A stretch of 64,000 bases of DNA from Microbacterium sp. LWH13-1.2 (GTDB taxonomy: Bacteria > Actinomycetota > Actinomycetes > Actinomycetales > Microbacteriaceae): NCBI RefSeq assembly GCF_038397735.1, contig NZ_CP151635.1, forward strand, positions 2,232,001 to 2,296,000, read 5' to 3'. The notes beneath the pieces were generated by a model, which saw nothing but the letters and a program-made list of their open reading frames with translations, was not told where the DNA came from and made no database searches. Position numbers and translations under genes: made by a program. Of the stretch, positions 38,218 through 55,477 are shown one piece after another. Positions within the stretch are counted from its first letter, which is position 1; each line of letters starts with the position of its first letter.

Positions 38218-38232
38218 CCTGCTCACCTCGCC

Positions 38233-39447: not shown

Positions 39448-41689
39448 CCGTCAGGCCGCGAGGGCGTCGCGGCTGTCGTGGCATCGGGAACACGAACTGC
39501 CCACCGGCACCGTCCTGCCGGCGGTGCTGGCCGCGGGCGCAGGACTCGTGGCGATGTGGCCGTATACCTCGGTCATCGAACCGGGGACCTGGTCGTTCGC
39601 CGTGCTGGTCGTGATCGTGGTCACCGCGCTCACCGGCATGACGATGCGCACGCTGATGCGCCGTCGCGCGGCCTGGGCTCGGGACCTCGCCACCATCGGA
39701 GTGCAGATCCTCGTCGCGATCGGCACCGTGGTGCTGCTGGTGGCGGGAGACACCGCTGTCTTCGGAGTGATCCCCACCGACGCGACGATCTTCACCTTCC
39801 AGACCCTGGCGGCCTCCGCCTGGGAGGAGGTCATGTTCGGGTCCGCGCCGATCGCCGCGTCACCGGGACTCGAGGCGATGATGGGCCTCGGGTTCGCGGT
39901 GGTGGCGATCCTGCTCGATCAGCTCGTCGCTCAGCGCGGCGCGATCCTGGCGAGTCTGCTGACCGCCGTCGTGGGGTCGGTGCCGATGATCGTCACGCTC
40001 GGCGGTGTGAACGTCGTGTGGTTCGTCATGCTCGGCATCCTGATCGTCGTCCTGCTGAGGTACACCGCGGCTCAGAACCCGGAATCGCCTCGGCGCACGT
40101 CCACCGCGGTCGCGGCGGGAGTCGGTGTCGCCGCTCTCGCGGTCACGGTCATCGTCGCGCCCGTCCTGCCGGTGTCGGCCAGCCTCGCCGGCACAGGCGT
40201 GGGCGTCACGGTCGACGCATCGCTGCGGCTCGGCGACGACCTTCGCCAGCCGAACCCTGTCGAGGTGCTCACGATGGCGACGACGGCCGATACGGCGCCC
40301 TACCTGCGACTCACGACGCTGTCGGAGTTCGACGGCCGCGTGTGGGAGCCGGATCGCGGCGACCTGCAGTCCCTGAGCGACGGCTTCGGCCCGGACGAGT
40401 GGGGCGACGACATCGAGACGACCGACCAGAACACCTCGATCCGCGTCGTCCGGATGTCGAGTTCCTGGTTGCCGGTGCCCTACCCCGCGACCAGCGTGCA
40501 GGGCATCACGGCGGGGTGGCGCGTGAGCACGGAGAACCGCACCATCACCTCCCGCACCGCGGATGCCGTCGGCAACGACTACACCGTCCGGTCGATCGAG
40601 GTGGCGCCCACACTCGAGCAGATCCGGGCGATCCCGGCCGCCGAGCGGATCGTCGATCCCGATGCGGAGCCCGTGGAGCTGCCCGCGGTGATCGCTGAGA
40701 CGGCCGCGGAGGTCACCGCGGGTGCGACCAACGACTACGACCGGCTGATCGACCTGCAGTCGTGGTTCCGCAGTCAGTTCGCGTACTCGCTCGACACCCC
40801 GGTCGACGAGGGCTTCGACGGCACCGGAGCCGACGCGGTGGCGCAGTTCCTCGAGGTGCGCTCGGGATACTGCATCCACTTCGCGGGCGCGTTCGCGCTC
40901 ATGGCCGAGAGCCTCGACATGGAGGTGCGCATCGTCGTCGGCTACCTGCCCGGAGTGCGCACCGACAACACCCGTGGCGATGAGGCCGTCTACTCCGTCT
41001 CGAGCGATCAGCTGCACTCGTGGCCGGAGGTGCTCTTCCCCGGGGTCGGTTGGGTGCCGTTCGAGCCGACAGCCTCTCTCGGGGTTCCGACGGCGTTCGC
41101 CGCGGGTTCCACCACGGGTGGCGGATCCGGCGGATCGACGCCGACCGCTCCCTCCGCCGCCCCCAGTGCTGAGCAGAGCTCGGGGCCGGTCATCGAGCGC
41201 GAGGACGCAGGTGACAACGCGGGTGCGAACGGCGAGCTGCGGCGTCTCGATCCGACGCCCGTCATGCTGACGACCCTCGGTGTGCTGGTGGCGCTGCTGC
41301 TGCCCGCGCTGATTCGCCTCGCGATCCGCGTTGCGCGGCGTGGTCGGGCGAAGAGCGGTGACGCGGCATCGGCCTGGACCGAGCTGCGGGCGACGATGCA
41401 GGATCTGCGGCTTCCGCTCTCGGATGCGGAGACACCGCGCATGCGCGGTGTCGACCTCATCCGGGAGAACGGCGTGGATGCCGACGCGATGCGCGCCCTG
41501 GTCGACGCCGTCGAGCGATCGAGCTACGGGCGACCGTCGCCTGATCGGTCCGGCGATCTCGATGAGGCGCTGAGAGAGGTGATCGTCCAGCTGCGGCGGA
41601 GCGTCGATGGACGCTCGCGCGTGCTGGCGTTCCTTCTACCCCGGTCGCTCTTCGCGAGTCGCCGGACCGACGTGCCTCTGGTCGCCTGA
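39434..41689 (+). CDS. Transglutaminase-like membrane protein (DUF3488/TgpA-type)
   Basis: A 751-aa protein. A run of six to seven helices (about 25-255) precedes an extracytoplasmic transglutaminase-like domain with the catalytic Cys in VRSGYCIHFAGAFALMA (about 479), His in SDQLHSWPEVLFPG (about 527) and the following acidic residue region GWVPFEP. A Gly/Ser/Pro-rich linker, one helix (about 615-640) and a cytosolic C-terminal DUF4129-like region end it. ATG at 39434 has GGGGAG upstream and overlaps DUF58. Similar proteins are thought to act on envelope proteins. Confidence 0.92.
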   Translation: MSRADRQAARASRLSWHREHELPTGTVLPAVLAAGAGLVAMWPYTSVIEPGTWSFAVLVVIVVTALTGMTMRTLMRRRAAWARDLATIGVQILVAIGTVVLLVAGDTAVFGVIPTDATIFTFQTLAASAWEEVMFGSAPIAASPGLEAMMGLGFAVVAILLDQLVAQRGAILASLLTAVVGSVPMIVTLGGVNVVWFVMLGILIVVLLRYTAAQNPESPRRTSTAVAAGVGVAALAVTVIVAPVLPVSASLAGTGVGVTVDASLRLGDDLRQPNPVEVLTMATTADTAPYLRLTTLSEFDGRVWEPDRGDLQSLSDGFGPDEWGDDIETTDQNTSIRVVRMSSSWLPVPYPATSVQGITAGWRVSTENRTITSRTADAVGNDYTVRSIEVAPTLEQIRAIPAAERIVDPDAEPVELPAVIAETAAEVTAGATNDYDRLIDLQSWFRSQFAYSLDTPVDEGFDGTGADAVAQFLEVRSGYCIHFAGAFALMAESLDMEVRIVVGYLPGVRTDNTRGDEAVYSVSSDQLHSWPEVLFPGVGWVPFEPTASLGVPTAFAAGSTTGGGSGGSTPTAPSAAPSAEQSSGPVIEREDAGDNAGANGELRRLDPTPVMLTTLGVLVALLLPALIRLAIRVARRGRAKSGDAASAWTELRATMQDLRLPLSDAETPRMRGVDLIRENGVDADAMRALVDAVERSSYGRPSPDRSGDLDEALREVIVQLRRSVDGRSRVLAFLLPRSLFASRRTDVPLVA

Positions 41690-41693
41690 GGTG

Positions 41694-42584
41694 TCAGGCC
41701 GCGTGCTGCGCGCAGCGCACGGCGTCGCAGGACTCGCACGCGACGAACTGCGTGCGACAGGAGAGGTCGGGACAGTTCGCCGTGCGCTTGGTCGCCGCCC
41801 CACATCCGACACACTCGCCGATGACGGCGGCGTGATCCGAGAAGTCGATGGACCCGCGCTTGTCGAACACGTAGAGCGATCCCTCCCAGAGCCCGTCATC
41901 GCCGTACTGCTCGCCGTAGCGGACGATGCCTCCCTCGAGTTGGTAGACCTCGCCGAACCCGCGTGAGGTCATCAGACTCGAGAGGACCTCGCACCGGATG
42001 CCGCCGGTGCAGTACGTCACCACGGGCTTGCCCTTGAGATCGTCGTACTCGCCGGAGTCGAGCAGCTGGACGAAGTCACGCGTGGTCTCGGTGTCGGGCA
42101 CGACGGCTCCGCGGAAGCGGCCGATCTGCGCCTCCAGCGCATTGCGTCCGTCGAAGAACACGACGTCGTCTCCCCGCTCGCCCATGAGTTCGTGCAGCTG
42201 TTCGGGGGTGAGGCGAGTGCCGCCGCCGACGACGCCCTGCTCATCGACGCGCAGCTCGCCCGGCGCCCCGAACGAGACGATCTCGTCGCGCACCTTGACG
42301 CTGAGCTTCGGGAAGTCGATGCTGCGGCCGTCGGCGTCGACTCCGCTGCCCTCGCTCCACTTGATGTCGGCATTCTTGAACGGCGCGTACGACCGGAAGG
42401 ACCGCGCCCACTTCTTGAGGGCCAGAAGGTCACCGCCGAGGGTGCCGTTGACTCCGTCTTTCGAGATCAGGAGCCGACCCCGGAGACCGAGCGCCTCGCC
42501 GAGGTCGCGCTGCCACACCCGGATCGCCTCGGGGTCGGCGAGCGGGGTGAACACGTAGAAGAGAACGATCTTGGGGGTTGCCAC
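41694..42584 (-). CDS. trhO: tRNA uridine(34) hydroxylase TrhO (rhodanese-like)
   Basis: Forms 5-hydroxyuridine at position 34 of certain tRNAs with oxygen as oxidant. The 296-aa UPF0176 protein has an N-terminal ferredoxin-like domain ([14 protein letters not shown]), a rhodanese domain with the active-site Cys in [18 protein letters not shown], and a C-terminal Cys-rich zinc-ribbon-like tail (CVGCG...CPDLSC...CESC). The start is GTG at 42584. It converges with the transglutaminase gene (4 bases between stops) and separates the housekeeping region from the RiPP operon, which ends 55 bases upstream. Confidence 0.93.
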
Positions 42585-42639
42585 CTGGAGATTTTACGTC
42601 GCCCTGAGGGAGTCCTGCGCCGGAGCACGCTCGAGTCCT

Positions 42640-43374
42640 CTATGTCACATCGCGGGTGACGAACGAGACTCCGCCGGCCACGACAGCCGTGAACACCCAG
42701 CCGACCGCCACCAGAGCGGCGATCGGGCCGCCGAGCCTGTCATCCGGCACGATCCCCACCGCTGAGAGATCGAACCGGAGGGCTTCGAGCATCGCGAGGA
42801 ACGGAAGGTAGACGGCACCCTCTCTCCAGACGATCGCCAGGAGCACTGCTCCGCTGAGGGACATCGGAACGACGAAGAGCGCGACGAGATGGGTCTGCAC
42901 GATGACTCCCAGCCCCATTCCCCAGAGGCCCGATGCCGCGCCGAGCACACCGGTCTGTGCGACCGATGACCAGTCCAACGGAAGCCCCTCGCCGGCCAGG
43001 CGCAGGGCGGCGTGACCGGCGGCTGCTGCTGCGAGGGCGACGATCGCACCACCGACGGCTGCTCCGAACGCCCTGGCCAGATATGTCGCACCACGCCGCT
43101 GCGACATCAGACGCTGAGCGATGACACCGTCCCGCCGATCGACGGTGTACCGGAACGATCCGTAGACCGCCGCGAGAACCGCACCGTAGGTCGCGAGCAC
43201 CGTCGCGAACGGCGCGGTGAGAGACGCTCGGACGTCCGGCGGTGCGTCGGCGAGCTCCGGCGGTATGTTCGCCACGACGGAGAGCGAGATCACGACTCCC
43301 GCCACCGCCACCCAGAGAAGGACGACGTCACCGGCGAAGACGCGCGCGTGGGCTCGAAGGACGCGACCGATCAC
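42640..43374 (-). CDS. ABC transporter permease 2 of the daptide-type cluster
   Basis: A 244-aa membrane protein with about six helices, starting at GTG 43374 in a GTGA overlap with permease 1. It is the last gene of the RiPP operon. It resembles ABC-2-type permeases (long loop with VIAQRLMSQRRGATYLARAF between helices). With the ATPase (44096-44812) and permease 1 it should form an exporter for the mature peptides, or a self-protection pump. Assignment is by topology and context. Confidence 0.8.
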   Translation of the reverse strand: MIGRVLRAHARVFAGDVVLLWVAVAGVVISLSVVANIPPELADAPPDVRASLTAPFATVLATYGAVLAAVYGSFRYTVDRRDGVIAQRLMSQRRGATYLARAFGAAVGGAIVALAAAAAGHAALRLAGEGLPLDWSSVAQTGVLGAASGLWGMGLGVIVQTHLVALFVVPMSLSGAVLLAIVWREGAVYLPFLAMLEALRFDLSAVGIVPDDRLGGPIAALVAVGWVFTAVVAGGVSFVTRDVT

Positions 43375-44099
43375 ACGCCCCTCCTGCTGCCCCTGAACCA
43401 CGCGACGGCGACCAGCCCGGCAGCCCACGCGATTGCGATGCCGAGCGCCGGCACGAAGTCGAGCAGACGGTCCTGATAGCCGGGAACGCTCACGGCTGCC
43501 AGGACCAACCCCGGCGAGAACCTGGCCAGCTCGGGCGCCGTGCGCAACAGAGCGAGCTCCAGCACCATCGGGAGGACGAGGACGATCGCTGCCGTGACGT
43601 AGTAGTTTCGGGCGATCCAGCCGATGGCCCCTCCGATCAGCGCGCCGAGAACCACCCCCACCAGTGCCCCGCCATAGATCCGCCACGCATCCGAGGTGAG
43701 TGAGAGCGAGAGGCCGCTCCGCAGCAGGATGACGGAGACACCGGCCGTCCAGACGACGAAGATGCAGATCGAGACGGCGAGCGCGATGAGAGTGCCGGCG
43801 ACGAGCTTTCCCGAGAATGCGCGTCGAAAGCCGACTCCGGTGAGCGTCCTGTCCATCGAGGCGTAGTAGCACTCGCGGGTCACGCCATACGCGCCGATGA
43901 ACGCCGCAGAGACGGCGCACCAGGCGAGCGGCTCCAAGAGCCCTGCGGTGGCGGCGCCGGATTCGAGGCCCTCGAGGTCGAAGCGCGAGCCGTCCGAGAA
44001 CAGCACGAAAGCAGGCATCAGGACGGCGACGACATAGACCGCCAGGACGGAGGATCCGCTCACCGCCCGGACGACCTCACTGTGGATGATTCCCTTCAC
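43371..44099 (-). CDS. ABC transporter permease 1 of the daptide-type cluster
   Basis: A 242-aa ABC-2-like permease with six helices (about 12-32, 52-75, 95-120, 140-162, 168-190, 208-235). The loop ECYYASMDRTLTGVGFRRAF between helices 2 and 3 matches the coupling region of this family. ATG at 44099 overlaps the ATPase stop (ATGA); its own end overlaps permease 2. The tight overlaps suggest equimolar expression of exporter subunits. Confidence 0.82.
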   Translation of the reverse strand: MKGIIHSEVVRAVSGSSVLAVYVVAVLMPAFVLFSDGSRFDLEGLESGAATAGLLEPLAWCAVSAAFIGAYGVTRECYYASMDRTLTGVGFRRAFSGKLVAGTLIALAVSICIFVVWTAGVSVILLRSGLSLSLTSDAWRIYGGALVGVVLGALIGGAIGWIARNYYVTAAIVLVLPMVLELALLRTAPELARFSPGLVLAAVSVPGYQDRLLDFVPALGIAIAWAAGLVAVAWFRGSRRGV

Positions 44100-44812
44100 G
44101 AGGACGCTCCTTCGACCAGATCGAAATACTTGCTTTCCAATGTGTCGGCACCGTCCGTGACGAGGTCGCCGAGCTTCCCGGCGAAGAGCGCCCGTCGTTT
44201 GATGACGACCACCTCATCCACGACCTGTTCCAGCTCTGCGAGCTGATGACTGGCGATCAGCACCGTGCCACCGGCCTCCGCATAGTCTCGGAGGAACCGG
44301 CGCAGCCAGCGGATGCCGTCGGGGTCCAACCCGTTGGCGGGCTCGTCGAGGATGAGTGTCCGCGGGGAGCCCATGAGCGCGGCGGCCAGCCCGAGGCGCT
44401 GGGCCATCCCGGTGGAGAAGGTCTTCACACGGCGACGGGCGTCTGCGGCGAGACCCACCTCATCGAGCACGGCGTCGACTCGACCACGCGGCGCACCGGC
44501 CGCGAGGCGGCAGATCTCCAGATGCCTCCTCGCGGTGATCCCGCCCTCGAAACCGAATCCGTCCATGTGGACCCCCACGTGAGAGGCAGGGTCATCGAGT
44601 GCGGAGAACGGCATGCCGTCGATGACGGCGTCACCGCTCGTCGGAGTCAGCAATCCGACGAGCGTTCGCAGCGTCGTCGACTTGCCCGCGCCGTTGGGCC
44701 CGAGGAGGCCGACGATCGCCCCGTACGGCACCGCGAACGACAGGTCCTCGACCGCGGCCCGATCTCCGTACCTCTTCGTGAGTCCTCGAACCTCGATCGC
44801 GTGCGTGTTCAT
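44096..44812 (-). CDS. ABC transporter ATP-binding protein of the daptide-type cluster
   Basis: A 238-aa ATPase of the bacitracin/lantibiotic-export type. Walker A LGPNGAGKSTTLRTL, Q-loop region near VGVHMDGFGFEGG, signature FSTGMAQRLGLA (a variant of LSGGQ), Walker B LILDEPANGLDPDG, and the H-switch ASHQLAELEQ. I chose ATG at 44812, since AAAGGA lies 7 bases upstream; the ATG two codons earlier is too close to that site. It almost abuts the protease gene and overlaps permease 1. Confidence 0.9.
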   Translation of the reverse strand: MNTHAIEVRGLTKRYGDRAAVEDLSFAVPYGAIVGLLGPNGAGKSTTLRTLVGLLTPTSGDAVIDGMPFSALDDPASHVGVHMDGFGFEGGITARRHLEICRLAAGAPRGRVDAVLDEVGLAADARRRVKTFSTGMAQRLGLAAALMGSPRTLILDEPANGLDPDGIRWLRRFLRDYAEAGGTVLIASHQLAELEQVVDEVVVIKRRALFAGKLGDLVTDGADTLESKYFDLVEGASS

Positions 44813-44814
44813 CT

Positions 44815-46500
44815 TCATTCCTTTCTCGCCTCTCCGCTCTGGAGGGATGACAGCGGCAGCGCCACACCGGTCTCCCAGATCGCCTGCCACAGGTTTCTCT
44901 CTCCCAGCCGGACTCGGGCCTGCCCCGTCGCAGGTACGCTCGCTCTCTCGGAGGCCATCTCGACTCCGGCGACGATCACCCCGGCCACCGACGCGCCGTC
45001 GACCACCACGGGAAGGAGCGCGTCCAGGGGAACCCTCCTCGGCTCCGGCGGCACGGACGTGACCACTCCTTCGCCGACAGGATCGTTCGCGAGGAGCCCG
45101 TTGCTCATCAGGACGACCTCGGTCCCCTCCGGCACTTCCGTCTCCACGGCCTCTCCCGCCTGCAGAAGGACCGCGGTGCCGTTTTGCGCCGCGAAGCCGA
45201 AGGTGGCTGTCACCGGCACGGTTATGACGATTCCGGTGATCACTGTGGCCGCGGCCGTCGCTGCGATCACCGACACGAATCGAAGCACCGCGACACCGGA
45301 CAGCAACACTCTGTGCAAGGCCCGAGAGAGGATCACGAGGCCCGTGAGAAGCGCCGCCGCTTCGAGCATGACGACGAGCACACCGACGATCGGCCCCCCG
45401 CCCGCCAGCGCCCGGGCTATTCGAGACAGCGCCAAGACCACCAGCACCACGGGGGCCGCGAGACTCGCGAGTCCGAAGGGCACGCTCCACCACCGCTCGA
45501 GGCTCTTGCTCGTCCGCCGTCCGCCGAACAGGGCTCGAGTCAAGAAGGCCGACCCGTCGCGGATCGCCCGCGCCCTGAGGTTCGGTTCGTCGAGAGCGCA
45601 CATGAGCGCGATGTATCCGTCGAATCTCACGAACGGGATGAGGTTGATGAGGACGATGGCGGCGCAGGAGACAGCGAGAAGCAGCACGGTCCGGCGAAGC
45701 ATGGAGGGTGGCAGCATGAGCGCGACGATGAGCGCGATCGCGCTCACGGAGGCGTGCACAGCCGGTCCCGCCAGGGCCACGGCCACGCGATGGCGGCGAT
45801 CGGAGAGTCGCCACCCGTCGGTCACATCGACGAAGAACGCGGGGCTGAGATAGAACAGCATGAATCCTGCACGGCGCGGTCGGCCGCCGAACCTGGTGAG
45901 CGTTATCCCATGGGCGCTCTCGTGGAGGGCGGTCAGCAGCGAGAGCACTGCGAGCAATGAGATGAAGCCGACGAGCGGCACCGGCGTGGTGAGCACCTCG
46001 TGCAGCTCCTCAGCCTGATGCGCTGCCGCGAGAATTCCGGAGCAGACCAGGACCGCGACGAAGAGCGTCGAGGCGCGGAGGGGGAGCGGGACGATCAGCC
46101 GAGCCAGACGGTCGAAGATGACGGGCGCGCGAAGCGTCGCGAACTGCAGCGTGAACGGGGGTCGATAGACGATTCTGCCGGGTGGGGGCTTCGCCTCGCC
46201 TCCGAGGAGCCCACCGGCCTGGAAGCGCTGGACCAGGCGCAGAAAGCCCTCCGACGACTCGGCGGCGGCGAAGCGCAGGCGCAGGTCGCGAATCGGCGTC
46301 TCTCCGTCCATCGCTTTCAACAGCTCGATGGTCGCCTCGGAGACCCTCGAGGAAGGCACCCCGTCGAGCATCGCGATCCAGGGTCCGGCGTCGGCGGCTT
46401 GCTCGAAGGAGACCCCGGGCGCGAGACGCGGGCATTCATCGGCGTTGAGGACGACCGACGTCGAGGAATCCCGTCGGTGGGTGAGGCTATTCGGACGCAT
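44815..46500 (-). CDS. mpaP: PqqD-like domain / M50 zinc metalloprotease, daptide-type
   Basis: A 561-aa membrane protease, probably the leader peptidase of the cluster. Residues about 20-100 (ECPRLAPGV...VSEATIELLKAMDGETPIRDL...FQAGGLLGG) look like a PqqD-type RiPP recognition element. The membrane core follows: zinc motif HESAHG (193-198) and the third ligand Asp in IPFVRFDGYIAL (about 294). A C-terminal part (about 440-561) is extracytoplasmic or hydrophobic-beta. ATG at 46500 has GGGGG 5 bases upstream and overlaps the methyltransferase by 14 bases. The symbol follows daptide nomenclature from memory. Confidence 0.85.
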   Translation of the reverse strand: MRPNSLTHRRDSSTSVVLNADECPRLAPGVSFEQAADAGPWIAMLDGVPSSRVSEATIELLKAMDGETPIRDLRLRFAAAESSEGFLRLVQRFQAGGLLGGEAKPPPGRIVYRPPFTLQFATLRAPVIFDRLARLIVPLPLRASTLFVAVLVCSGILAAAHQAEELHEVLTTPVPLVGFISLLAVLSLLTALHESAHGITLTRFGGRPRRAGFMLFYLSPAFFVDVTDGWRLSDRRHRVAVALAGPAVHASVSAIALIVALMLPPSMLRRTVLLLAVSCAAIVLINLIPFVRFDGYIALMCALDEPNLRARAIRDGSAFLTRALFGGRRTSKSLERWWSVPFGLASLAAPVVLVVLALSRIARALAGGGPIVGVLVVMLEAAALLTGLVILSRALHRVLLSGVAVLRFVSVIAATAAATVITGIVITVPVTATFGFAAQNGTAVLLQAGEAVETEVPEGTEVVLMSNGLLANDPVGEGVVTSVPPEPRRVPLDALLPVVVDGASVAGVIVAGVEMASERASVPATGQARVRLGERNLWQAIWETGVALPLSSLQSGEARKE

Positions 46501-47314
46501 CGCGGCCCCCGGCGTCCGACGTCCCCGCCCACGTCGTCGTGAGCAGGAGGATCTCGTCATGCCCCGTCGTCCTGACCGGAGAGATGACAGGAGCAGCGAA
46601 GCCCGCGTCGATGAGTTCTCGTGCGAGCGTGTCATGCCCGAGCACTCGCAGGCGGCTCGTGAGCACCGTCGCCTCGCTGCCTTCCGTCAGGTCGGCGACA
46701 CGAACCCAATTGACCACGCGCTCGGCGCCGCCCTCCTCCATCTGCTGCGAGAAGAGGTAGATCTCCTCCCCGTCGGGCCCGGGTATCGTGACCACCCGAT
46801 CCGTCGACGTCGAGAGGCTCGCGGCAGAGCCACCGCCTGCAACGGTCATGGCGAGAACACCTCGAGCGGCGAGGTGGCGTCGCACGTTCGCGTAGAAGCG
46901 TGATCTGCCCACCCTGTCGAGCAGAGTGATGGATGTCGCGCCTATGATCACGAGGTCGAACCGCCGGCCCAGCGCGAAGTCGCGCATGTCGCCGACGACG
47001 CACTCGAGCATCGGATGGTCAGGCACCGCACGGCGAAGGCGCGAGAGCATGTCGTCGGAGAGGTCTAACGCCGTCACCCTTCTGCCCGATCTCACCAGAG
47101 GTATGGTCAGCCGCCCGCTCCCGGCGCCGATGTCGAGAATCGGCCCTTCGACGCCTCGCGCGAGCGCCAGCATCTCTCTGATCTCCGCACGGTCAGACCC
47201 CACCAGCCTGTCGTAGAACTCGGCACCGTCGCCGGTGTAGAGGTCCTGTTCCTTCGGTACCGCTCCGACCATTTCGAATCTCGCCGATACGGCCTCGGTG
47301 ATCAGACTCGACAT
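46487..47314 (-). CDS. mpaM: SAM-dependent methyltransferase, daptide-type (N,N-dimethylation)
   Basis: A 275-aa class I methyltransferase. SAM motif I LDIGAGSGRLTIPL (60-73), acidic motif VTALDLSDDML, motif GDMRDF, and post-motif VIIGATSITLLD. In daptide biosynthesis the methyltransferase places two methyl groups on the C-terminal amine made by the aminotransferase, giving the N,N-dimethyl-1,2-propanediamine end. It follows precursor 3 after a GC-rich hairpin, with AGAGAGG before ATG 47314. The function is inferred from cluster context; the fold is clear. Confidence 0.88.
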   Translation of the reverse strand: MSSLITEAVSARFEMVGAVPKEQDLYTGDGAEFYDRLVGSDRAEIREMLALARGVEGPILDIGAGSGRLTIPLVRSGRRVTALDLSDDMLSRLRRAVPDHPMLECVVGDMRDFALGRRFDLVIIGATSITLLDRVGRSRFYANVRRHLAARGVLAMTVAGGGSAASLSTSTDRVVTIPGPDGEEIYLFSQQMEEGGAERVVNWVRVADLTEGSEATVLTSRLRVLGHDTLARELIDAGFAAPVISPVRTTGHDEILLLTTTWAGTSDAGGRDASE

Positions 47315-47343
47315 ATTGCATTACCTCTCTGCCAAGAGCATCA

Positions 47344-47375
47344 GGGTGCGGGTGTGTCATCACCCACCCGCACCC
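47344..47375. terminator. Hairpin after precursor 3 gene
   Basis: An 11-bp perfect stem GGGTGCGGGTG (47344-47354) / CACCCGCACCC (47365-47375) with a 10-base loop, immediately after the third precursor stop. There is no T tract on the minus strand, so it is more likely a partial terminator or a 3'-end stabiliser than a full stop. It would keep precursor mRNA more abundant than that of the enzymes downstream. Confidence 0.65.
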
Positions 47376-47380
47376 CTTGA

Positions 47381-47500
47381 TCAGGTTGCGATCGCTGCCG
47401 CACTGCCGATGATGGCGATGATGTAGCTCGCGTGCTCCCACCACTCGAGTGGGGCATCGATCTGTTCGAGTTCGAGGAACTCGAGCGAATCCGTCTGCAT
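47381..47500 (-). CDS. Daptide-type precursor peptide 3
   Basis: A 39-aa peptide. The leader begins MQTDSLEFLELEQIDAP and carries the shared L-E-F-x-E-L-E motif (6-12). The hydrophobic core continues LEWWEHASYIIAIIGS and finishes AAAIAT. The C-terminal residue is Thr, the residue converted to the Dmp end in daptides. ATG at 47500 follows GGAGGTATGAC. A hairpin precedes and another follows the gene. It is too small to be found by length alone; the motif shared with its two neighbours makes it convincing. Confidence 0.9.
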   Translation of the reverse strand: MQTDSLEFLELEQIDAPLEWWEHASYIIAIIGSAAAIAT

Positions 47501-47515
47501 GTCATACCTCCGTGA

Positions 47516-47536
47516 AGGCACCTTGCGAAGGTGCCT
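47516..47536. other. Hairpin between precursor 2 and precursor 3
   Basis: AGGCACCTT / AAGGTGCCT with a 3-base loop fills most of the gap between the two genes, starting right at the precursor 2 stop codon. It may be an RNA processing or stabilising element that adjusts relative peptide levels. Confidence 0.7.
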
Positions 47537-47662
47537 CTATGTCAGGGCGAAGATGCCGATGATCACTCCCACAGCGAATCCACGCGTGAAATCGAGGGCG
47601 TCATCGAGCGCTTCCATGGACTCGAGTTCTTGGAACTCGAGCGTCGGTGTTGCTGATCGCAT
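47537..47662 (-). CDS. Daptide-type precursor peptide 2
   Basis: A 41-aa peptide: leader MRSATPTLEFQELESMEAL with the shared L-E-F-Q-E-L-E motif (8-14), then DDALDFTRGFAVGVIIG and the terminal IFALT, ending in Thr followed by TAG. ATG at 47662 has GGGAGGTGAGC upstream, a very strong ribosome site. The core is a single hydrophobic helix with two acidic residues at its start. It is the middle gene of three; its sequence differs from the other cores, so the products would be distinct. Confidence 0.9.
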   Translation of the reverse strand: MRSATPTLEFQELESMEALDDALDFTRGFAVGVIIGIFALT

Positions 47663-47699
47663 GCTCACCTCCCTCCCGTTTCTCCTGGTCTGCTCGCGA

Positions 47700-47834
47700 T
47701 CACGTCGCTGCAGCCGCGCCGATGCCGATCAGCACCAACGCGCCGAGTACGCCCTTGTAGAAGCTGTCCCAACTGGGGGCATCCATCGCCTCCAGCTCCT
47801 GGAACTGAAGCTGTGGTCCGGCACTTTCGGTCAT
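47700..47834 (-). CDS. Daptide-type precursor peptide 1
   Basis: A 44-aa peptide: leader MTESAGPQLQFQELEAMDAP with the shared L-x-F-Q-E-L-E motif (9-15), then SWDSFYKGVLGALVLIG and the end IGAAAAT, terminating in Thr. ATG at 47834 overlaps the dehydrogenase stop (ATGA), and its ribosome site AAGGAGGTG lies inside the last codons of that gene. It is therefore expressed at least partly from the upstream operon, unless an internal promoter exists in the dehydrogenase gene. Confidence 0.92.
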   Translation of the reverse strand: MTESAGPQLQFQELEAMDAPSWDSFYKGVLGALVLIGIGAAAAT

Positions 47835-49021
47835 TGATTCACCTCCTTCCGCAACTTGGACGATCGGTCGGGATGACCGAACGGCTGAGAGCTCCATGAC
47901 GAGTCACGGAGAAGATCGGAGAAGTCCGCTGCGACGAGACCCGCGAGCATCGGGTGGCGATTCGCCCAGGCTCTCTCTGTGACAGCGGCGATGCGCGCGA
48001 TGGACCGAGGAGTCGGGCGTGGCGGAGTCGGGATCTGCCAACGATCGATGAGGGCGGCGATGCCCGACGGCGGGTCGAGCGGAAGCGCGAGCCCACTCGC
48101 TGCCGTCGACCAGAACTCTTCGAGGCTCCGTCGATCTCCCCAGCGCCGGTCTCCCGAGCAGATCCGACGCCAGACGGCAGCGATGATCGCCGCCGTTGCG
48201 GCCATCTTGCGCACTTCCAGCGCGAAGGACACCTCGTTCGCGATGTACCAGTGACGGGCGCTGTAGGGGTCGCTCCCCCGCAACGCCGCCGTTCGCTGGG
48301 TCGCTGCGCTCAGACGCGCGAGGCGCAGTCGTGACCCCGGAGAGGTGTCGCCCCGGCTCGCCGTGGCGAGAAGCGCGCTGCCGAGCGTGATCGCATCGCA
48401 TTTCGCCCTGATGGTCCTCCGCGGGCTCGTCGAGGCTCCGGCCAGACGGAGGAACGCCTCCATCGCACCCTCTCGGACGGCCACCGGCGAAAGGGTCATC
48501 AGGTTGCGCGCATCGATGATGGCGTGGCGCGGCCTCAACGAGCCGCCGATGATGAGCCGGTGGCCACTCTCGTTCGTCAGGATGCCGACGCTGTTCGTCT
48601 CCGACGAGGTGCCCAATGTCGTCGGCACCGCGATGACTTCCACAGGCGGCGGCGCATCGGGCAAGAAGGTCAGTGCCGACGTCGCCGCGCGTTCGATCGC
48701 GAAGTCGAACGTCCGCCCGGGAGAAAGCACGAGCGCGGCGATCTTGCTGGCGTCGAGGATGCTTCCCCCGCCCACCGCGATGATCACGCGCGGCTTCCGA
48801 CGAGCGATCTGCTCCGCGATGGAGACGACAGAGGCGATGCTCACAGAACGAGCGTCGACCACGATCGTCATGGGAGGACTCCCCGAGAGAACAGGTGTGG
48901 GAGTCGACGAGTCCATGATCGCGAGTGCCTCCCGGCCAGCGGTGAGCCGATCGGTCATCCGCCTCGTGATCCCCTGACCGTGCCAGAGCGTCGGAACCCG
49001 TGCCGCGAGCTCAGCGCTCAT
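47831..49021 (-). CDS. Daptide-type dehydrogenase (Fe-alcohol-dehydrogenase superfamily)
   Basis: A 396-aa protein of the iron-containing alcohol dehydrogenase fold. The NAD-binding part is clear: VIIAVGGGSILDASKIAAL (79-97) and AVPTTLGTSSETNSVGIL (about 130-147). In daptide biosynthesis a protein of this type oxidises the C-terminal Thr side chain, and the beta-keto acid then loses CO2. The usual metal-binding Asp-x3-His and later His pair are not evident: where GMDALTHAIE is expected there is GAMEAFLRLA. It overlaps the aminotransferase by 11 bases and precursor 1 by 4. Confidence 0.85.
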   Translation of the reverse strand: MSAELAARVPTLWHGQGITRRMTDRLTAGREALAIMDSSTPTPVLSGSPPMTIVVDARSVSIASVVSIAEQIARRKPRVIIAVGGGSILDASKIAALVLSPGRTFDFAIERAATSALTFLPDAPPPVEVIAVPTTLGTSSETNSVGILTNESGHRLIIGGSLRPRHAIIDARNLMTLSPVAVREGAMEAFLRLAGASTSPRRTIRAKCDAITLGSALLATASRGDTSPGSRLRLARLSAATQRTAALRGSDPYSARHWYIANEVSFALEVRKMAATAAIIAAVWRRICSGDRRWGDRRSLEEFWSTAASGLALPLDPPSGIAALIDRWQIPTPPRPTPRSIARIAAVTERAWANRHPMLAGLVAADFSDLLRDSSWSSQPFGHPDRSSKLRKEVNQ

Positions 49022-50276
49022 GTCGACGCTCCCGCATCTGTGTCAACCCGGCGCGCACTGCCGAATCCGTCTCGAGAAGCTCGGTCGAGGTGAATCCGTA
49101 CGCCGGGATCAACGCGATCGCACTGGGGCCCGGCTGCACCAGCACTCCGTGATCCGCGATCTCGGAGACGACTCGAAGCACCTCCGCTCCCGACAGCGGG
49201 CTCGCGTCGCTGTCACGCAGGGCGAGCCCCAGGAAGCAACCGGCGCCCGTCACGTCGGCGATCAGTCCGTCAGACTTCAGGGTCGCCGCCAGGCGTGATA
49301 GCTCGCGCCCGAGCGCTGCGGTGGTCGGGTTCACATCGATGCGGTGCAGCTCGTCGATCACTGCGGTGACAGCCGCCGCGCACGCCGGAGTACCTGCCTG
49401 CGTCTCACCGTGGACGAACGTCCAACCGCCACGCACGAACGCTGACGAGACACGGGGCCCGACGAGAATCGCGGCCGCTCCCGCCGCGCCGTTCGTCAAG
49501 GCTTTCGACAGGATCAGCACGTCGGGTGCGGCGCCCCATCCGTCGGTGGAGAACATGCGTCCGGTGCGGCCGAATCCGGTCGCCACCTCGTCGGCGACGA
49601 CAAGGAACCCGTAGTGCTCGCGCAACGCGAGCAGCCGCGAGACGAACGTCTCCGAGAGTGCATGTGCGCCGCTGCCCAGGACGGGTTCGACGACCACCGA
49701 TGCCACTCGGTGCCCTTCGCGACTCAACAGCGCCTCGAGTTGCTCTCCGTCGTCGTCGTAGGACACGTGCCTCACCGACCTGCGGTCGACGGAATAGACG
49801 GATTGAAGAAGATCGTCGCCACTCAACGCGTGGCTGCCGTACATGGTGCCGTGATAACTGCCCGTCAGCCCGACGACGAGAGAGCGCGACTCCGCTCCTT
49901 GGTGAGACCAGTACTGTCGCGCCAACTTCATCGCGGCGTCGTTCGCCGCTCCGCCCGAGGTCGAGAAGATGACGCGCCTGTACCGGCGCGGGTTCGCGAG
50001 CTCGATGAGCGCGTCGGCCGCGTCTTCGGCATATCGATGCGGCGCGCGGAAGAGGGACAGGTAGGAAGCGTCGTGCATCGCTCGGTCCACCGCTTCGGTC
50101 ACCGCCGGGTTGCCGAAACCGAGAGGGACGTTCCACAGCCCGCTCGTCGCGCAGAGACGTGTGGATCCGTCTGCGAACTCGATGCGGTTGCCGACAGCAC
50201 CGACCGCGACCCGATCCGGTGTGAAGGTGGCGTCTGCCGGAAGCATCGAGGGCCACAGTGCATGCGGAGAGTTCAC
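49011..50276 (-). CDS. mpaD: Class III PLP-dependent aminotransferase, daptide-type
   Basis: A 421-aa aminotransferase. Class III features: FSTSGGAANDAAMKLARQYW, the LTGSYHGTMYG block, Asp of VVADEVATGFGRTG that binds pyridine N1, and the PLP Lys (about 258) in LILSKALTNGAAG. In daptides this step converts the C-terminal methyl ketone to an amine. GTG at 50276 is preferred (GTGA overlap with the upstream gene); a GTG at 50300 is the alternative. Symbol from memory of daptide nomenclature. Confidence 0.9.
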   Translation of the reverse strand: MNSPHALWPSMLPADATFTPDRVAVGAVGNRIEFADGSTRLCATSGLWNVPLGFGNPAVTEAVDRAMHDASYLSLFRAPHRYAEDAADALIELANPRRYRRVIFSTSGGAANDAAMKLARQYWSHQGAESRSLVVGLTGSYHGTMYGSHALSGDDLLQSVYSVDRRSVRHVSYDDDGEQLEALLSREGHRVASVVVEPVLGSGAHALSETFVSRLLALREHYGFLVVADEVATGFGRTGRMFSTDGWGAAPDVLILSKALTNGAAGAAAILVGPRVSSAFVRGGWTFVHGETQAGTPACAAAVTAVIDELHRIDVNPTTAALGRELSRLAATLKSDGLIADVTGAGCFLGLALRDSDASPLSGAEVLRVVSEIADHGVLVQPGPSAIALIPAYGFTSTELLETDSAVRAGLTQMRERRHER

Positions 50277-51322
50277 GTTCGGGCGCCGTGTGCGGCGCAC
50301 GCCGCGTCACTCGGCATGCCGAGGTGGATGTCGAGTGCATCGACCGCTCCGAGGCACAGCCCACGCGCATCAACCGTATCGATGTCGAGTTCGCGGGAGA
50401 CACGATCGGCCGCGAGCTCGGCTGTCGTCGAGGTCTGGACCACAGTGACCACGGTGGCGGTCGTCGGAGACAGAAGCCGGCGCCGCAGGGTGGTGAGGTC
50501 GGCGAGCACGAAGCCGTCTGCCGTATCGAGAAGGAACGGATCCCTCATTCGAGGTTCGGCATCCGCACGGCCATCTTCACCGGGGCACCAGCCGAATCCC
50601 GCGATCTTCGCGGCACCGTTCGCCAGGCGCATCGTCTTCATGAGGTCTGTCGCGTTGAGGTAGCGCCCGATCCGTTCGCGGCAGGTGAAGTCTGAGGGGC
50701 CCGCCGAGCCGCTCGTCGCAGCTCCGAGCATCGCCGCACGCGGCATCGGGACCGTCAGCAGCTCTCTCAGTTCGTCGACGCCGCCAAGGGGTTCGCCCCG
50801 CACGCCGATGCTGACTGTGCCGTCCGCGCTCAGCCTGATGGCGCTCGGAGTCCCGAGTCCCGTCGGACCGACCAGTGCACGCCGATTCGCGAGCAGCACG
50901 CGCTGATCGATCAGAGCCGACGGGAACACTCCTGTGCGTCGTGCGAGTGCCGCATCGTCGAGAAAAGCCTGCGCGCTCGGTTCGTCGAAGAGGCCGACGA
51001 CGGTGGGGCCGATGATCTGGACGAATGCCGCGGCGACGTAGTCTTCGACTTCGACGGCGCGCTCCCCGAGGAAGAGGGCGTCGCCGATCTCGTTCAGCGC
51101 TCCGCTGTAGCGGAAGGAAAGCGCGCGGCCGCCCCACGGCCCGCTGTCGACGGCCAGAAGAACCGCGTCATCGTCGCCCGCGACATCGGCGACGACAGTC
51201 GGGCTTGCGCCGCTCTCGACCATGAAGACGCGCGAGAATGCCTCCGGTTCTCCCGTGATCCACTCACGCAGTGCTCGTGCTCCGATGAGATCAGATCCGG
51301 TGCGTGCCCTCTCGCGCCCCAT
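50273..51322 (-). CDS. Putative daptide RiPP recognition protein
   Basis: A 349-aa cytosolic protein with no motif I can assign to a known enzyme. Its place between the kinase-like gene and the aminotransferase matches the recognition (RRE-type) protein of daptide clusters, which would present the leader peptide to the modifying enzymes. It includes CRERIGRYLNATDLMKTMRL and a charged N-terminus MGRERARTGSDLIGARALR. The ATG at 51322 shares one base with the upstream stop (TGATG), and its stop overlaps the aminotransferase start. Function is inferred from context only. Confidence 0.65.
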   Translation of the reverse strand: MGRERARTGSDLIGARALREWITGEPEAFSRVFMVESGASPTVVADVAGDDDAVLLAVDSGPWGGRALSFRYSGALNEIGDALFLGERAVEVEDYVAAAFVQIIGPTVVGLFDEPSAQAFLDDAALARRTGVFPSALIDQRVLLANRRALVGPTGLGTPSAIRLSADGTVSIGVRGEPLGGVDELRELLTVPMPRAAMLGAATSGSAGPSDFTCRERIGRYLNATDLMKTMRLANGAAKIAGFGWCPGEDGRADAEPRMRDPFLLDTADGFVLADLTTLRRRLLSPTTATVVTVVQTSTTAELAADRVSRELDIDTVDARGLCLGAVDALDIHLGMPSDAACAAHGART

Positions 51323-52224
51323 CAGAGACCCTCGTCTTGAGCCGTTGAGGTGTCGAGACCCGGCCGCCTCCGCGGGCGCGGCATCCTGGTGCCGAGCAGC
51401 TGCCCGACGTGCCGGTGGATGAACGGGACGAGTTCCGTGTGCTCGCCCGCATCCGCGCGAGTGAGCAGCTTCGTCATCACGTAGAGCTGCGAGATGACGC
51501 CGCCGTCGGACTCGAGATCGCCGCGAAAGCGTCGTGCCACCTGGTCGGCGGCGTGACGTACCGCGAGCGAGTGGCCGAGCAGGAAGGCCGCGTCATAGCC
51601 GCGTGGCGCGAGGCCCCAGGCCTCCCAGTCGGCGATCGCGAACGGCTCGCGGTGAAGATTGTTCCAGTGCAGGTCACCGTGTGCGGGCAGCCACTCGCGG
51701 GGGTCGATGTCCAGATCGATCCCGAAGAACACCGTGATTCGTCGACGCATGGTTTCGGGGTCCAGGACTCGCCGCTCGGTGGATGTCTCAGCGAGAGCTC
51801 TGAGACTGCGCTCGAGCTCGTCCCACCACCCGTCGTCGAGACCGGGGTTCCGTTCGAGGACCGCCGTCGATGCGCAGGCCCTGCCCGGCAGGAGGCTCAT
51901 GAGCTCGGCGCGATAGACCAGCGGGCCTTCTTCCCACGCACGCGCATCCAGCACCCGCGGCTTGGCCACGCCCCGGATCGACGTCGCGTCTCGATTGCCG
52001 GTCCACCAGTCCCCCTGCGCCTGCTCGCGGCGCGCCCACACCACGCGAAGCCACTGTCGCGATCCTGCATGCTCGACGGCTGATCCGATCGAACGATCGC
52101 GCCATCCGAAGCGGACCCGCCCGATCGCGTCGAGCCCGAGGTCGGCCAGCGCCCTCGAGTGCGCCATGCGCAGTGCTGTGCGCAGAGCGGTGCTGGGCGA
52201 GATCGCCATATCGACCGTGGTCAT
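51322..52224 (-). CDS. Aminoglycoside phosphotransferase (APH)-like protein heading the RiPP operon
   Basis: A 300-aa kinase-fold protein. The catalytic loop is WLPAHGDLHWNNLHREP (HGD at 182-184, Asn at about 188), and the metal-binding Asp lies in FAIADWEAWGLAPRGYDAAF. The N-lobe is weakly conserved. I chose ATG at 52224 because GGAGGAACTG is well spaced ahead of it; upstream ATGs at 52260 and 52278 lack good sites. Its stop overlaps the recognition-protein start. It may phosphorylate a peptide or small molecule, give self-protection, or be regulatory. I do not recall this gene as a standard daptide component. Confidence 0.7.
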   Translation of the reverse strand: MTTVDMAISPSTALRTALRMAHSRALADLGLDAIGRVRFGWRDRSIGSAVEHAGSRQWLRVVWARREQAQGDWWTGNRDATSIRGVAKPRVLDARAWEEGPLVYRAELMSLLPGRACASTAVLERNPGLDDGWWDELERSLRALAETSTERRVLDPETMRRRITVFFGIDLDIDPREWLPAHGDLHWNNLHREPFAIADWEAWGLAPRGYDAAFLLGHSLAVRHAADQVARRFRGDLESDGGVISQLYVMTKLLTRADAGEHTELVPFIHRHVGQLLGTRMPRPRRRPGLDTSTAQDEGL

Positions 52225-52444: not shown

Positions 52445-52529
52445 GGTGACGTGTCCGAGCGGCCGAAGGAGCACGCTTGGAAAGCGTGTGTTGTGCAAGC
52501 AACCGCGGGTTCGAATCCCGCCGTCACCG
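52445..52529 (+). tRNA. tRNA-Ser(GGA)
   Basis: An 85-base class II tRNA. Acceptor GGTGACG (52445-52451) pairs with CGTCACC (52522-52528), with discriminator G. The anticodon stem CACGC/GCGTG encloses TTGGAAA, giving GGA. A long variable arm follows, then the T arm GGGTTCGAATCCC. CCA is not encoded. Confidence 0.97.
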
Positions 52530-52531
52530 CC
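52517..52531 (+). repeat. 15-bp direct repeat, copy 1 (3' end of tRNA-Ser)
   Basis: CCCGCCGTCACCGCC, covering the T-arm/acceptor 3' end of the tRNA plus two bases. An identical copy lies at 52630-52644. Confidence 0.9.
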
Positions 52532-52532
52532 G

Positions 52533-52578
52533 AAAAGCATGAAGGGTCTCCGCGCCAGCGGGGGCCCTTCATGCTTTT
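52533..52578 (+). terminator. Terminator after tRNA-Ser
   Basis: A 14-bp stem AAAAGCATGAAGGG / CCCTTCATGCTTTT, extended by CTCCGC/GCGGGG, ending in a T run: a canonical Rho-independent terminator. Confidence 0.95.
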
Positions 52579-52629
52579 TGTCGAGCATCGTGGGATTCGG
52601 GGAGGAGCGAGCGCAGCGAGCACCGGAGT

Positions 52630-52663: not shown

Positions 52664-53263
52664 CTAGCTGAACCGCACCCCGTAGCTCTGCCCGCCCGGC
52701 TCGGCCGGCAGCGGCGTCATGCCGAGCCGCTCGTAGAACGCGGCGGCACCCGTGTTCTTCGGGTCCATGCCCAGGTGCAGTCCGCGCACTCCGCGGCGTC
52801 TGAGCTCGGCGAACAGCGTCTCGATGAGCGCGCGTCCGAGGCCCTGCCCCTGTGTCTCGGGCAGCAGGTCGATGTGCAGGTGCGCCGGGTACTCCGCGGC
52901 ATTCGCGTTCCGTCCAGGCGCCTGGCTGAAGCCGTGCTCGATCATCCGCTCTTCGCGGGTCTTCGGCTCGGCCGCACGCGGATACCGCTCCTGCAGCGTC
53001 GGCCACCACTCGTCGCGGAACCAGGTGGCGAAAGCCTCCGTGTCGTCGGTCGCGACGATGTAGCCGATCACGCGTTCGTCGTCGGTCTCGACCACCCACG
53101 CGAGGTCCGGATGCCGTTCGGCATAGGGCACCGCGAAGAGGTCACCCCAGAGGGAATCGTCCGAGAAGATCCCGGTCGCGTCAGCGCCGGCGTCCGCGGT
53201 CCTCGTGCACACCTCGTACAGGGCTGCGCGGTCGGACGGACGATACGGGCGGATGCGAGACAC
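52664..53263 (-). CDS. GNAT-family N-acetyltransferase
   Basis: A 199-aa acetyltransferase. The acetyl-CoA loop is LLPETQGQGLGRALIETLF (motif A, Q/R-x-x-G-x-G/A), followed by GVRGLHLGMDPKNTGAAAFYERLGM. The central region is longer than in minimal GNATs and includes a WFRDEWWPTL helix, similar to the group related to eukaryotic O-GlcNAcase-like acetyltransferases. The start is GTG at 53263 with AGGAG upstream. The substrate is unknown. It converges on tRNA-Ser across the terminator and the repeat. Confidence 0.88.
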   Translation of the reverse strand: MSRIRPYRPSDRAALYEVCTRTADAGADATGIFSDDSLWGDLFAVPYAERHPDLAWVVETDDERVIGYIVATDDTEAFATWFRDEWWPTLQERYPRAAEPKTREERMIEHGFSQAPGRNANAAEYPAHLHIDLLPETQGQGLGRALIETLFAELRRRGVRGLHLGMDPKNTGAAAFYERLGMTPLPAEPGGQSYGVRFS

Positions 53264-53293
53264 GACGGCTCCTCGGTGAGTGGGGGTGTCCCG

Positions 53294-53929
53294 TCAGCCT
53301 ATCGGCGCGGATGCCTCCGCTCGGCGCGACGCCGACTGCACCCATGGCAGCATCACGGAGCCCAGCACGAGCACCACCCCGGCCCCGACGAGTGCACCGC
53401 CCAGAGTGTCCGTGGCCCAGTGGACCGAGAGCAGCGTGCGGGAGATGGCCATCGCGAGGACCCACAGGATTCCGAGGATCGCCGTCCACACGCGCGGGAA
53501 CACGAGCCACAGCACGACAGCGATCGTCGCCGCGTTGGCCGTATGACCCGAGGGGAACGAGCCGTAATCGCTCACCACGATCATGTCCTCCGGGCGCGCA
53601 CGTCCGAACAGCTGCTTGAGCAGCTGCACCGCTCCGGCACTGGCGAGGAACGCCGCGGCGGCGAACACCGCAGCACGCCATCGCCGAGCGAGCAGCAGCG
53701 CGATGATCATCAGGAGCGGCACGAGGAGGATGGCCACCCACCCGCCGCCGATGTCGTTGAGGATCAGCGCGAACGACAGCATCCACTCAGCGCGGTACGT
53801 GCTGATCGTCTCGTTCCACCAGGTGTCGAACCCCGGAGGCTCGGTGTACCCGAACACGATCGCCGCTCCGAGGAGCGTCGCCGCGACGAGCATCCCTATT
53901 CCCCACCACAGCAGCGTTCGTCGTCTCAT
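53294..53929 (-). CDS. PAP2-family membrane phosphatase
   Basis: A 211-aa polytopic lipid phosphatase. All three signature motifs are present: KQLFGRARP (C1), PSGH in YGSFPSGHTANA (C2) and SRTLLSVHWATD (C3). About six helices are seen. Members dephosphorylate phosphatidic acid, undecaprenyl or similar isoprenoid pyrophosphates at the outer membrane face; the exact lipid is unknown. ATG at 53929. It follows the exporter gene after about 30 bases. Confidence 0.92.
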   Translation of the reverse strand: MRRRTLLWWGIGMLVAATLLGAAIVFGYTEPPGFDTWWNETISTYRAEWMLSFALILNDIGGGWVAILLVPLLMIIALLLARRWRAAVFAAAAFLASAGAVQLLKQLFGRARPEDMIVVSDYGSFPSGHTANAATIAVVLWLVFPRVWTAILGILWVLAMAISRTLLSVHWATDTLGGALVGAGVVLVLGSVMLPWVQSASRRAEASAPIG

Positions 53930-53959
53930 CGAACCATTCTGCCCGGTGGATGCTGAATA

Positions 53960-55324
53960 TCAGGGAGCCAGCATGCCGACAGTCCGGGGGCGCACGATCA
54001 GCCACAGCGACAGAACGCCGATCGCCGCGCATCCGACCATGACCGAGGCCATGGTCGTCGCGGTGATTCCCGCCCCCTGGGAGACCCAGCCGACGACCGG
54101 CGAGATCAGCCCCGCAACACCGAAGTTGGTGGCTCCGATGACGGACGCCGCGGTGCCTGCCGCTTTGCCGTGCCTGTCGAGCGCGAGCACCTGCACGTTC
54201 GGGAACGTGAAGCCGCAGGCCGTCATGAAGACGAACAGCGGGACGACCGTGCCCCAGAGGCCGAGGCCCAGCTGGTCCGTGACGATGATCGCCGCTCCCG
54301 CGAGCAGCAGCACCGCGGTCGAGTAGGCCATGACCCACTGAGGACCGAAGCGCGCCGCGAGGCGCGAAGCGGTCTGCACACCGGCGACGACACCGAGGGA
54401 GTTCACCGCGAACAGGAGGCCGTACTGCTGGGCATCCAGTCCGTGCGTCTGCTGGAACAGGAACGGCGAGGCGGAGAGATACGAGAACAGACCCGAGAAG
54501 GTCATGCCGCCGATGATCAGCACACCGATGAAGACCCGGTCGGAGAACACCGAGCGGTAGCGCTGCAGGACGGTCGCGCCGCCCTTCTCCTGCCGCCGGG
54601 CGATGGGGAGCGTCTCGGGGATGAAGACGATGGCCGATACGAGCATCACCACGCCGTAGAGCGCGAGCACGACGAAGATCCCCCGCCAGGGCATGAGGGT
54701 GAGCAGCCACGAGCCGATCAGGGGCGCGATGACCGGCGCCACGCCCGACACCAGGGCGAGGCGCGACAGCATCACGACCAGGCGGCGTCCGCCGAACAGG
54801 TCGCGCACGATCGCCATCGCGACGACGCCACCGGCAGCGGCACCGACACCCATGAGAACGCGAGCGCCGCTGAGCAGGGGCAGGGTCGGGGCGTAGGCCG
54901 CCGCGGCACTGGCCAGCACGTGCAGCGCGGTCACGGCGATCAGAGGGATGCGGCGTCCGACCTTGTCGCTGAGCGGACCCACCACGAGCTGCCCGAGCGC
55001 GAAGCCGATCATGGTGCCGGTGAGGGTGAGCTGGATGGCCGCGGCCGTGGTCTCGAAGTCCTGCTCGAGCACGGGGAATGCCGGCAGGTAGAGGTCGATC
55101 GTGAACGGGCCGAGCGCGGTGAGCGCACCGAGCAGCACGATGTACAGCGCGCGGCGGCCGTTCGAGATCGAGTCGCCGGGGTGCAGCATGATCGGCGCCG
55201 TGGCGGGGTTCGATCCGAGGGTGCGGATCGCGCCCGTGGACGACGGGATGCGGATGCTGCCGGTGGCCGTGCGCTCGGTGGCGGAGGTCGTCGGGATGGA
55301 GTCAGTGCGTGGAGCGTCGGGCAC
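53960..55324 (-). CDS. Multidrug efflux MFS transporter (Bcr/CflA type)
   Basis: A 454-aa major facilitator with 12 helices. Motif A is seen in FALGQLVVGPLSDKVGRRIPL, and the Bcr-type N-terminus in ALTALGPFTIDLYLPAFPVL. The first 45-50 residues are a Ser/Thr-rich cytosolic extension. GTG at 55324 is chosen for the GGAAGGAC site upstream; an upstream ATG at 55513 would add 63 unlikely residues. It probably exports drugs or amino-acid-derived compounds by proton antiport. The nearby RiPP operon has its own ABC exporter, so no link is implied. Confidence 0.9.
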   Translation of the reverse strand: MPDAPRTDSIPTTSATERTATGSIRIPSSTGAIRTLGSNPATAPIMLHPGDSISNGRRALYIVLLGALTALGPFTIDLYLPAFPVLEQDFETTAAAIQLTLTGTMIGFALGQLVVGPLSDKVGRRIPLIAVTALHVLASAAAAYAPTLPLLSGARVLMGVGAAAGGVVAMAIVRDLFGGRRLVVMLSRLALVSGVAPVIAPLIGSWLLTLMPWRGIFVVLALYGVVMLVSAIVFIPETLPIARRQEKGGATVLQRYRSVFSDRVFIGVLIIGGMTFSGLFSYLSASPFLFQQTHGLDAQQYGLLFAVNSLGVVAGVQTASRLAARFGPQWVMAYSTAVLLLAGAAIIVTDQLGLGLWGTVVPLFVFMTACGFTFPNVQVLALDRHGKAAGTAASVIGATNFGVAGLISPVVGWVSQGAGITATTMASVMVGCAAIGVLSLWLIVRPRTVGMLAP

Positions 55325-55477
55325 GACGGTCCTTCCGGAGTTCGAGGGGATGAGGTCGAGTCGCGAGAGCGGCCGAATCGTCGATGAGATCTCGAAACGA
55401 TTCGATTCGGGCGAAGTCTCCATGTTACAGCTCAGGCGTGCACCGGCACATCCCGACGGATGCACCTTCATGCCGAA

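Follow-up and report, generated by a model that had tools for sequence, protein, structure and literature searches.

A daptide-type biosynthetic operon of Microbacterium sp. LWH13-1.2 with a recurrent hairpin behind its precursor genes and a linked gene for an APH-fold phosphotransferase

The stretch analysed here, referred to as the window, comprises 64,000 nt of the genome of Microbacterium sp. LWH13-1.2 (contig NZ_CP151635.1, positions 2,232,001 to 2,296,000), and its minus strand carries a compact operon for daptide-type ribosomally synthesized and post-translationally modified peptides (RiPPs) at 42640–52224. The genes are transcribed in the order K, dapB, dapD, dapC, dapA1, dapA2, dapA3, dapM, dapP, T1, T2, and T3 (Table 1); neighbouring listed frames overlap by 1–28 nt, and gaps of 37, 36, and 66 nt are confined to the precursor region. 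The initial annotation had placed a class III aminotransferase, an Fe-ADH dehydrogenase, a methyltransferase, a protease, an ABC exporter, and three small Thr-ending genes on this one strand, and had pointed to overlapping frames and conserved leader words. All of these were recovered, including an ELE-type leader word and the terminal Thr in each of the three small open reading frames. That list omitted dapB and left the right-hand gene, K, unidentified; in the published pathway, dapB is required at the first step.

We ran the NCBI daptide models over the cluster, and the products of dapB, dapD, dapC, dapM, dapP, and the three precursor genes all passed. Each of the five enzymes exceeds its curated NCBIfam daptide cut-off. 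Each of the families MpaA1 (NF041805), MpaA2 (NF041806), and MpaA3 (NF041807) is represented by one precursor, with scores of 84–93 bits against cut-offs of 40 that lie beyond chance, which supports the earlier call of a daptide-type operon with daptide-like leaders. With the general precursor model NF041808, A1–A3 were the only matches above cut-off in the whole 3.77-Mb genome; three other matches (E about 1–4) were at chance level and were rejected as further precursors. The exporter consists of one ATPase gene and two membrane-protein genes. In NCBIfam, T1 comes closest to TIGR03740, a model for lantibiotic-protection ATPases (183.5 bits, below the cut-off of 309.75); NCBIfam and Pfam searches gave no usable family match for T2 and none for T3. 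Taken as a whole, the locus is best explained as a complete-looking daptide cluster in which the hairpin behind dapA3 probably sets a precursor excess and K is an accessory, a view that we hold as a whole with very high confidence. The cluster is sound and ordinary within a known class; less ordinary are the linked kinase-like gene and the conserved RNA hairpin.

Table 1. Features of the daptide operon and of the borders of its site, in window coordinates
Feature	Description	Position	Strand	Evidence or remark
K (name coined here)	APH-fold phosphotransferase	51322..52224	-	stop codon has one base in common with the dapB start
dapB	daptide RiPP recognition element (RRE) protein	50273..51322	-	NF041823, 225.4 bits, cut-off 150
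dapD	class III aminotransferase	49011..50300	-	NF041821, 560.7 bits, cut-off 450; PF00202; start is GTG as listed, real start may be further inside
dapC	Fe-ADH-fold dehydrogenase, oxidative decarboxylase	47831..49021	-	NF041822, 325.7 bits, cut-off 300; PF00465
dapA1	precursor, 44 aa	47700..47834	-	NF041805, 92.8 bits, cut-off 40
dapA2	precursor, 41 aa, Leu replacing the pre-core Pro	47537..47662	-	NF041806, 85.7 bits, cut-off 40
dapA3	precursor, 39 aa	47381..47500	-	NF041807, 84.3 bits, cut-off 40
Hairpin	between dapA3 and dapM	47344..47375	-	perfect arms, folding energy, covariation
dapM	S-adenosylmethionine methyltransferase	46487..47314	-	NF041820, 253.1 bits, cut-off 175
dapP	intramembrane metalloprotease, HESAH motif	44815..46500	-	NF041824, 391.6 bits, cut-off 300 (whole protein, RRE part included)
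T1	exporter ATPase	44096..44818	-	PF00005, 98.8 bits
T2	probable exporter membrane protein, from position	43371..44099	-	equivalent place in 51/60 loci
T3	probable exporter membrane protein, from position	42640..43374	-	equivalent place in 51/60 loci
tRNA-Ser(GGA)	outside the operon, one border of the conserved site	52445..52531	+	ARAGORN
Rhodanese-type protein gene (presumed, named from its sequence)	outside the operon, other border of the site	41694..42584	-	present in 56/70 fetched stretches

The gene set closely resembles those of published clusters. The mpa cluster of M. paraoxydans DSM 15019 (PMC10036551) has the same enzymes B, C, D, M, and P with an exporter and, as in the window, three precursors of the MpaA1–A3 families with a C-terminal Thr; it differs in the predicted A2 and A3 masses and in the Leu that the window has at position −1 of A2. 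The tfDap cluster of Thermobifida fusca and the saDap cluster of Streptomyces azureus likewise contain DapA, B, C, D, M, P, and exporter genes, but they also carry a YcaO gene, DapY (PMC12338566), whereas the window's genome gave no match to the YcaO family PF02624, and therefore no imidazoline branch is expected. By analogy with published work on the homologues of the genes identified here, DapB would bind the leader of each precursor and offer its C-terminal Thr to DapC, which would convert the Thr to a ketone by oxidative decarboxylation; DapD would transaminate this ketone, DapM would dimethylate the amine to give a C-terminal N,N-dimethyl-1,2-propanediamine (Dmp), DapP would cleave off the leader, and T1–T3 would carry the products out of the cell. 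The window thus contributes three predicted peptides to a class for which 1,034 clusters have been predicted and whose functional role is called unclear by the authors (PMC12338566); daptides 1–3 were reported to be hemolytic and, in agar diffusion tests, not to inhibit growth significantly (PMC10036551).

In DapC, Glu188 and Arg192 align with an Asp and a His of two Fe-ADH chains in the PDB, the only two positions compared, and both residues are invariant across 16 DapC proteins. The aligned Asp and His lie in the helix after the Fe-ADH cofactor domain, and we take them to be metal ligands. The Asp/His pair that served as a test for metal-dependent Fe-ADH activity is therefore replaced by Glu188 and Arg192 in DapC, which agrees with the metal independence of TfDapC (PMC12338566).

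The masses of the Dmp products were calculated with the cut behind the conserved Pro; the window A2 needs a cut after Leu. The predicted [M+H]+ values are 2363.35 (A1), 2294.29 (A2), and 2369.30 (A3), the expected shift at the C-terminal Thr being −16.94 Da. For two other Microbacterium loci, L069 and L070, the same calculation gave 2363.3, 2232.3, and 2339.3, equal to all three m/z values of 2363, 2232, and 2339 given for daptides 1–3 of M. paraoxydans DSM 15019 (PMC10036551). Going by nominal mass alone, the L069 and L070 cores would be the same as the published ones, and this agreement supports the cut site used and hence the masses predicted for the window. Two observations weigh against this. 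The record named M. paraoxydans EaN35-6 (L188) yields 2393.3, 2288.3, and 2367.3, unlike the DSM 15019 products, so that the agreement in mass depends on different strains and may conceal isomeric cores; in addition, A2 of the window has Leu at −1, whereas the published cleavage follows Pro. The Leu is not peculiar to this strain, an idea we rejected: among 46 A2-type rows, left after three A1-type rows (L091, L094, and one of the two L101 rows) had been removed by eye, the −1 residue is Leu in 27, Pro in 18, and Gln in one. The claim of three new daptides is fair in a modest sense, as A1 and A3 are close to the L069 cores and A2 is less so: A1 shows two substitutions (Lys for Gln and Leu for Ile) with an unchanged nominal mass, A3 has one (Ser for Gly), and A2 has more. 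As a separate observation, a GxxxGxxxG pattern occurs within the final 20 residues of 52 of 55 A2 peptides; it is a candidate helix-packing motif.

At E ≤ 0.001, the daptide RRE protein was found in 68 of 366 genomes of the genus (65 above cut-off), in nine of 398 in a family sample (six above cut-off), and in 19 of 394 in a class sample (17 above cut-off). Besides the window's own genome, 67 genomes of the genus were positive, and we fetched 60 loci from them, leaving out G433, G482, G486, G493, G618, G679, and G724. All 11 genes stand in the window order in 51 of the 60 loci, and 53 have three distinct precursors; eight lack a tblastn match to at least one gene, some because of contig ends. 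Several Microbacterium clusters have a tandem pair of dapB genes, e.g., in G515 (L067), G589 (L072), G518 (L074), and G496 (L076), and the window has a single dapB. At L105 (G639), a dapB of 59% identity lies at 9013–10023 beside the same rhodanese gene, with no tblastn match to other dap genes in the fetched 19.5 kb, and is likely a cluster remnant. An additional gene is found between dapM and dapP in L118 (about 14200–15540), L230 (about 13900–15260), and L231 (about 4160–5470); judging by its motifs, it may encode a YcaO-like protein.

The gap between dapA3 and dapM contains a stem of 12 pairs, one of them G-U, with perfect arms; none of 100 shuffles gave such a stem, and the 70-nt stretch holding it folds at −32.8 kcal/mol (z −3.56). 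Across 55 loci including the window, the A3–M gaps fold better than their shuffles (40 each), with a median z of −3.3 and exceptions at L073 (z 0.6) and L100 (z −0.8), and the median z of the A1–A2 and A2–A3 gaps (54 and 47 gaps) is near 0. An uninterrupted stem of at least 11 pairs is present in 46 of the 55 A3–M gaps, against a maximum of eight pairs in the A1–A2 gaps and ten in the A2–A3 gaps, which are shorter and not length-matched. The motif TGCGGG occurs near the gap start in 47 of the 55; of the eight without it, five (L116 and L120–L123) hold a sequence-unrelated hairpin at the equivalent place. In 41 distinct TGCGGG-type sequences, 94.2% of cells are paired and six of the 13 pairs show changes on both sides (22 cells); none of 500 shuffles, which ignore kinship, reached the paired-cell or both-side-change values and 21 of 500 reached the number of pair types, with the structure itself derived from the sequences tested. 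Shifting the stem partners lowers all covariation measures. By sequence comparison, then, the hairpin is found repeatedly in the genus, with compensatory exchanges in its arms. The window's genome has just one further perfect GGGTGCGGG...CCCGCACCC stem, at L215 (G000:C1:3383234-3383261). Another hairpin, in the A2–A3 gap of the window (47516–47536, z −2.5), was dismissed as not general, since the 47 A2–A3 gaps of sufficient length for folding have a median z of about 0.

The most likely role suggested by these features is that the hairpin holds the precursor mRNA in excess of the enzyme mRNA. The stem is also a near-perfect DNA palindrome, as would be expected if it were a protein-binding DNA site or a simple terminator rather than an RNA element for differential expression; we consider this unlikely, given that several stem changes convert G-C to G-U, preserving the RNA stem but spoiling the DNA symmetry, that no T-tailed terminator was found at the A3–M hairpin, and that dapM, dapP, and the exporter genes come directly after it on the same strand. 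An RNA hairpin that raises precursor over enzyme mRNA offers a simple, testable account of precursor versus enzyme levels inside one operon.

Because a PDB sequence search with a K profile only reached a best E of 0.038, we compared folds for K. The predicted model (mean pLDDT 75.2, pTM 0.70) has an APH-type fold with the catalytic motifs, at about 10–16% identity to APH-type phosphotransferases in structural alignments; Foldseek rows ranked under the APH ones include protein kinases at a TM score of about 0.3. PF01636 was detected in four of 18 K members, the window K not among them, and the best NCBIfam match of these 18 proteins had an E of 0.007. No paper was found that combines 'daptide' and 'phosphotransferase', and the main texts of PMC10036551 and PMC12338566 mention neither phosphotransferase nor kinase; on a literature check limited to main texts, K is provisionally undescribed so far. 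The gene is present in 12 of 68 DapB-positive and eight of 298 DapB-negative genomes of the genus (Fisher p 2.6e-5, uncorrected for kinship). It lies behind dapP, between the protease and the exporter, in four fetched Microbacterium loci, with a fifth genome having K on a second contig. In another genus, two clusters (G171 and G331) likewise have K between P and T1. Outside the genus, eight of 20 daptide-positive genomes have a K-like match, in six of these on another contig than DapB or nearly 2 Mb off (G1019), and the regions fetched around K in G943 and G1018 contained no daptide cluster. The gene is absent from the fetched stretch in 51 of 60 daptide loci and is therefore not generally needed for daptide clusters; L069 and L070, the mass-matching stand-ins for mpa, also show no K, whereas the window has it upstream. 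K is an accessory APH-fold phosphotransferase tied to a minority of daptide clusters.

Identity to the sister genome G557 is 96.5% over 32811–42625 of the window and 96.6% over 52670–55430; positions 42626–51370 (dapB to T3) are missing from G557, and the K and tRNA region is only 76.3% identical. The cluster therefore fills precisely the interval from K to the rhodanese gene, and K either was exchanged along with the cluster or evolves fast. In nine genomes, K stands alone between tRNA-Ser and the rhodanese gene with no dap gene in the fetched stretch; eight copies are intact and one is truncated, and the intact ones have ratios of nonsynonymous to synonymous substitution rates (dN/dS) of 0.06–0.34 over 28 pairs. 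K could accordingly be a resident gene of the chromosomal site with another role, beside which the cluster merely inserted; the lone copies, one of them truncated, and the exact fit of the cluster speak for this, and we regard it as a possibility with less than even chances, since in the four Microbacterium loci and the two clusters of the other genus K is part of the operon, placed behind P, and its divergence from G557 contrasts with that of the flanks.

Alternatively, K may be a self-protection enzyme against daptides that some non-producers retain as a shield. Its enrichment in DapB-positive genomes, its place next to the exporter ATPase in other clusters, and the eight intact lone copies with low dN/dS are consistent with such a role, and its structural matches include kinases whose titles name peptide antibiotics (amicoumacin kinase and capreomycin phosphotransferase). 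Set against this are the many daptide loci without K, the Glu that the K proteins of L100 and L103 carry at the presumed catalytic Asp, and the fact that a common fold reveals no substrate; we rate self-protection as possible, though on the unlikely side. A third role would be that of a tailoring kinase phosphorylating precursor Ser or Thr, as proposed for lanthidin-cluster phosphotransferases: Ser and Thr occur in the window cores, and phosphorylation of a RiPP precursor at Ser/Thr has been proposed for Cao9, a putative kinase of the cacaoidin cluster with a phosphotransferase annotation (PMC8068269). Tailoring is quite doubtful in view of the intact K copies away from any dap gene, of clusters with very similar cores and no K, such as L069, and of a lyase partner that is not among the identified cluster genes, though no profile search was aimed at one. 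We lean weakly toward self-protection over tailoring. K could be of more consequence than the three added peptides: the function of daptides is called unclear, and because some relatives keep this linked gene on its own at the site, self-protection can be put to a genetic test.

In four more distant genomes (L165, L166, L167, and L169), the GNAT-type gene and the rhodanese gene are close neighbours, and neither K nor a dap gene was matched in the interval; an empty state of the site therefore exists as well. A midpoint-rooted tree of K places the internal copies on one side (95/99), and the orphan and 5-prime copies are intermixed, with three changes each. More speculatively, and improbably in our estimate, K would be a daptide-protective phosphotransferase at a site that switches by homologous recombination among four states (a producer carrying K, a lone K, a producer lacking K, and an empty site), as in producer–immune–sensitive bacteriocin systems; if so, daptides would acquire a gene for self-resistance and an ecological context.

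A search for sigma-70 promoters returned none, and terminator-like sites numbered three against 3.3 expected; no promoter is claimed. Just outside the tRNA-Ser gene, at about 52512–52599 of the window, lies an inverted repeat with reversed matches to relatives, which is perhaps a terminator.

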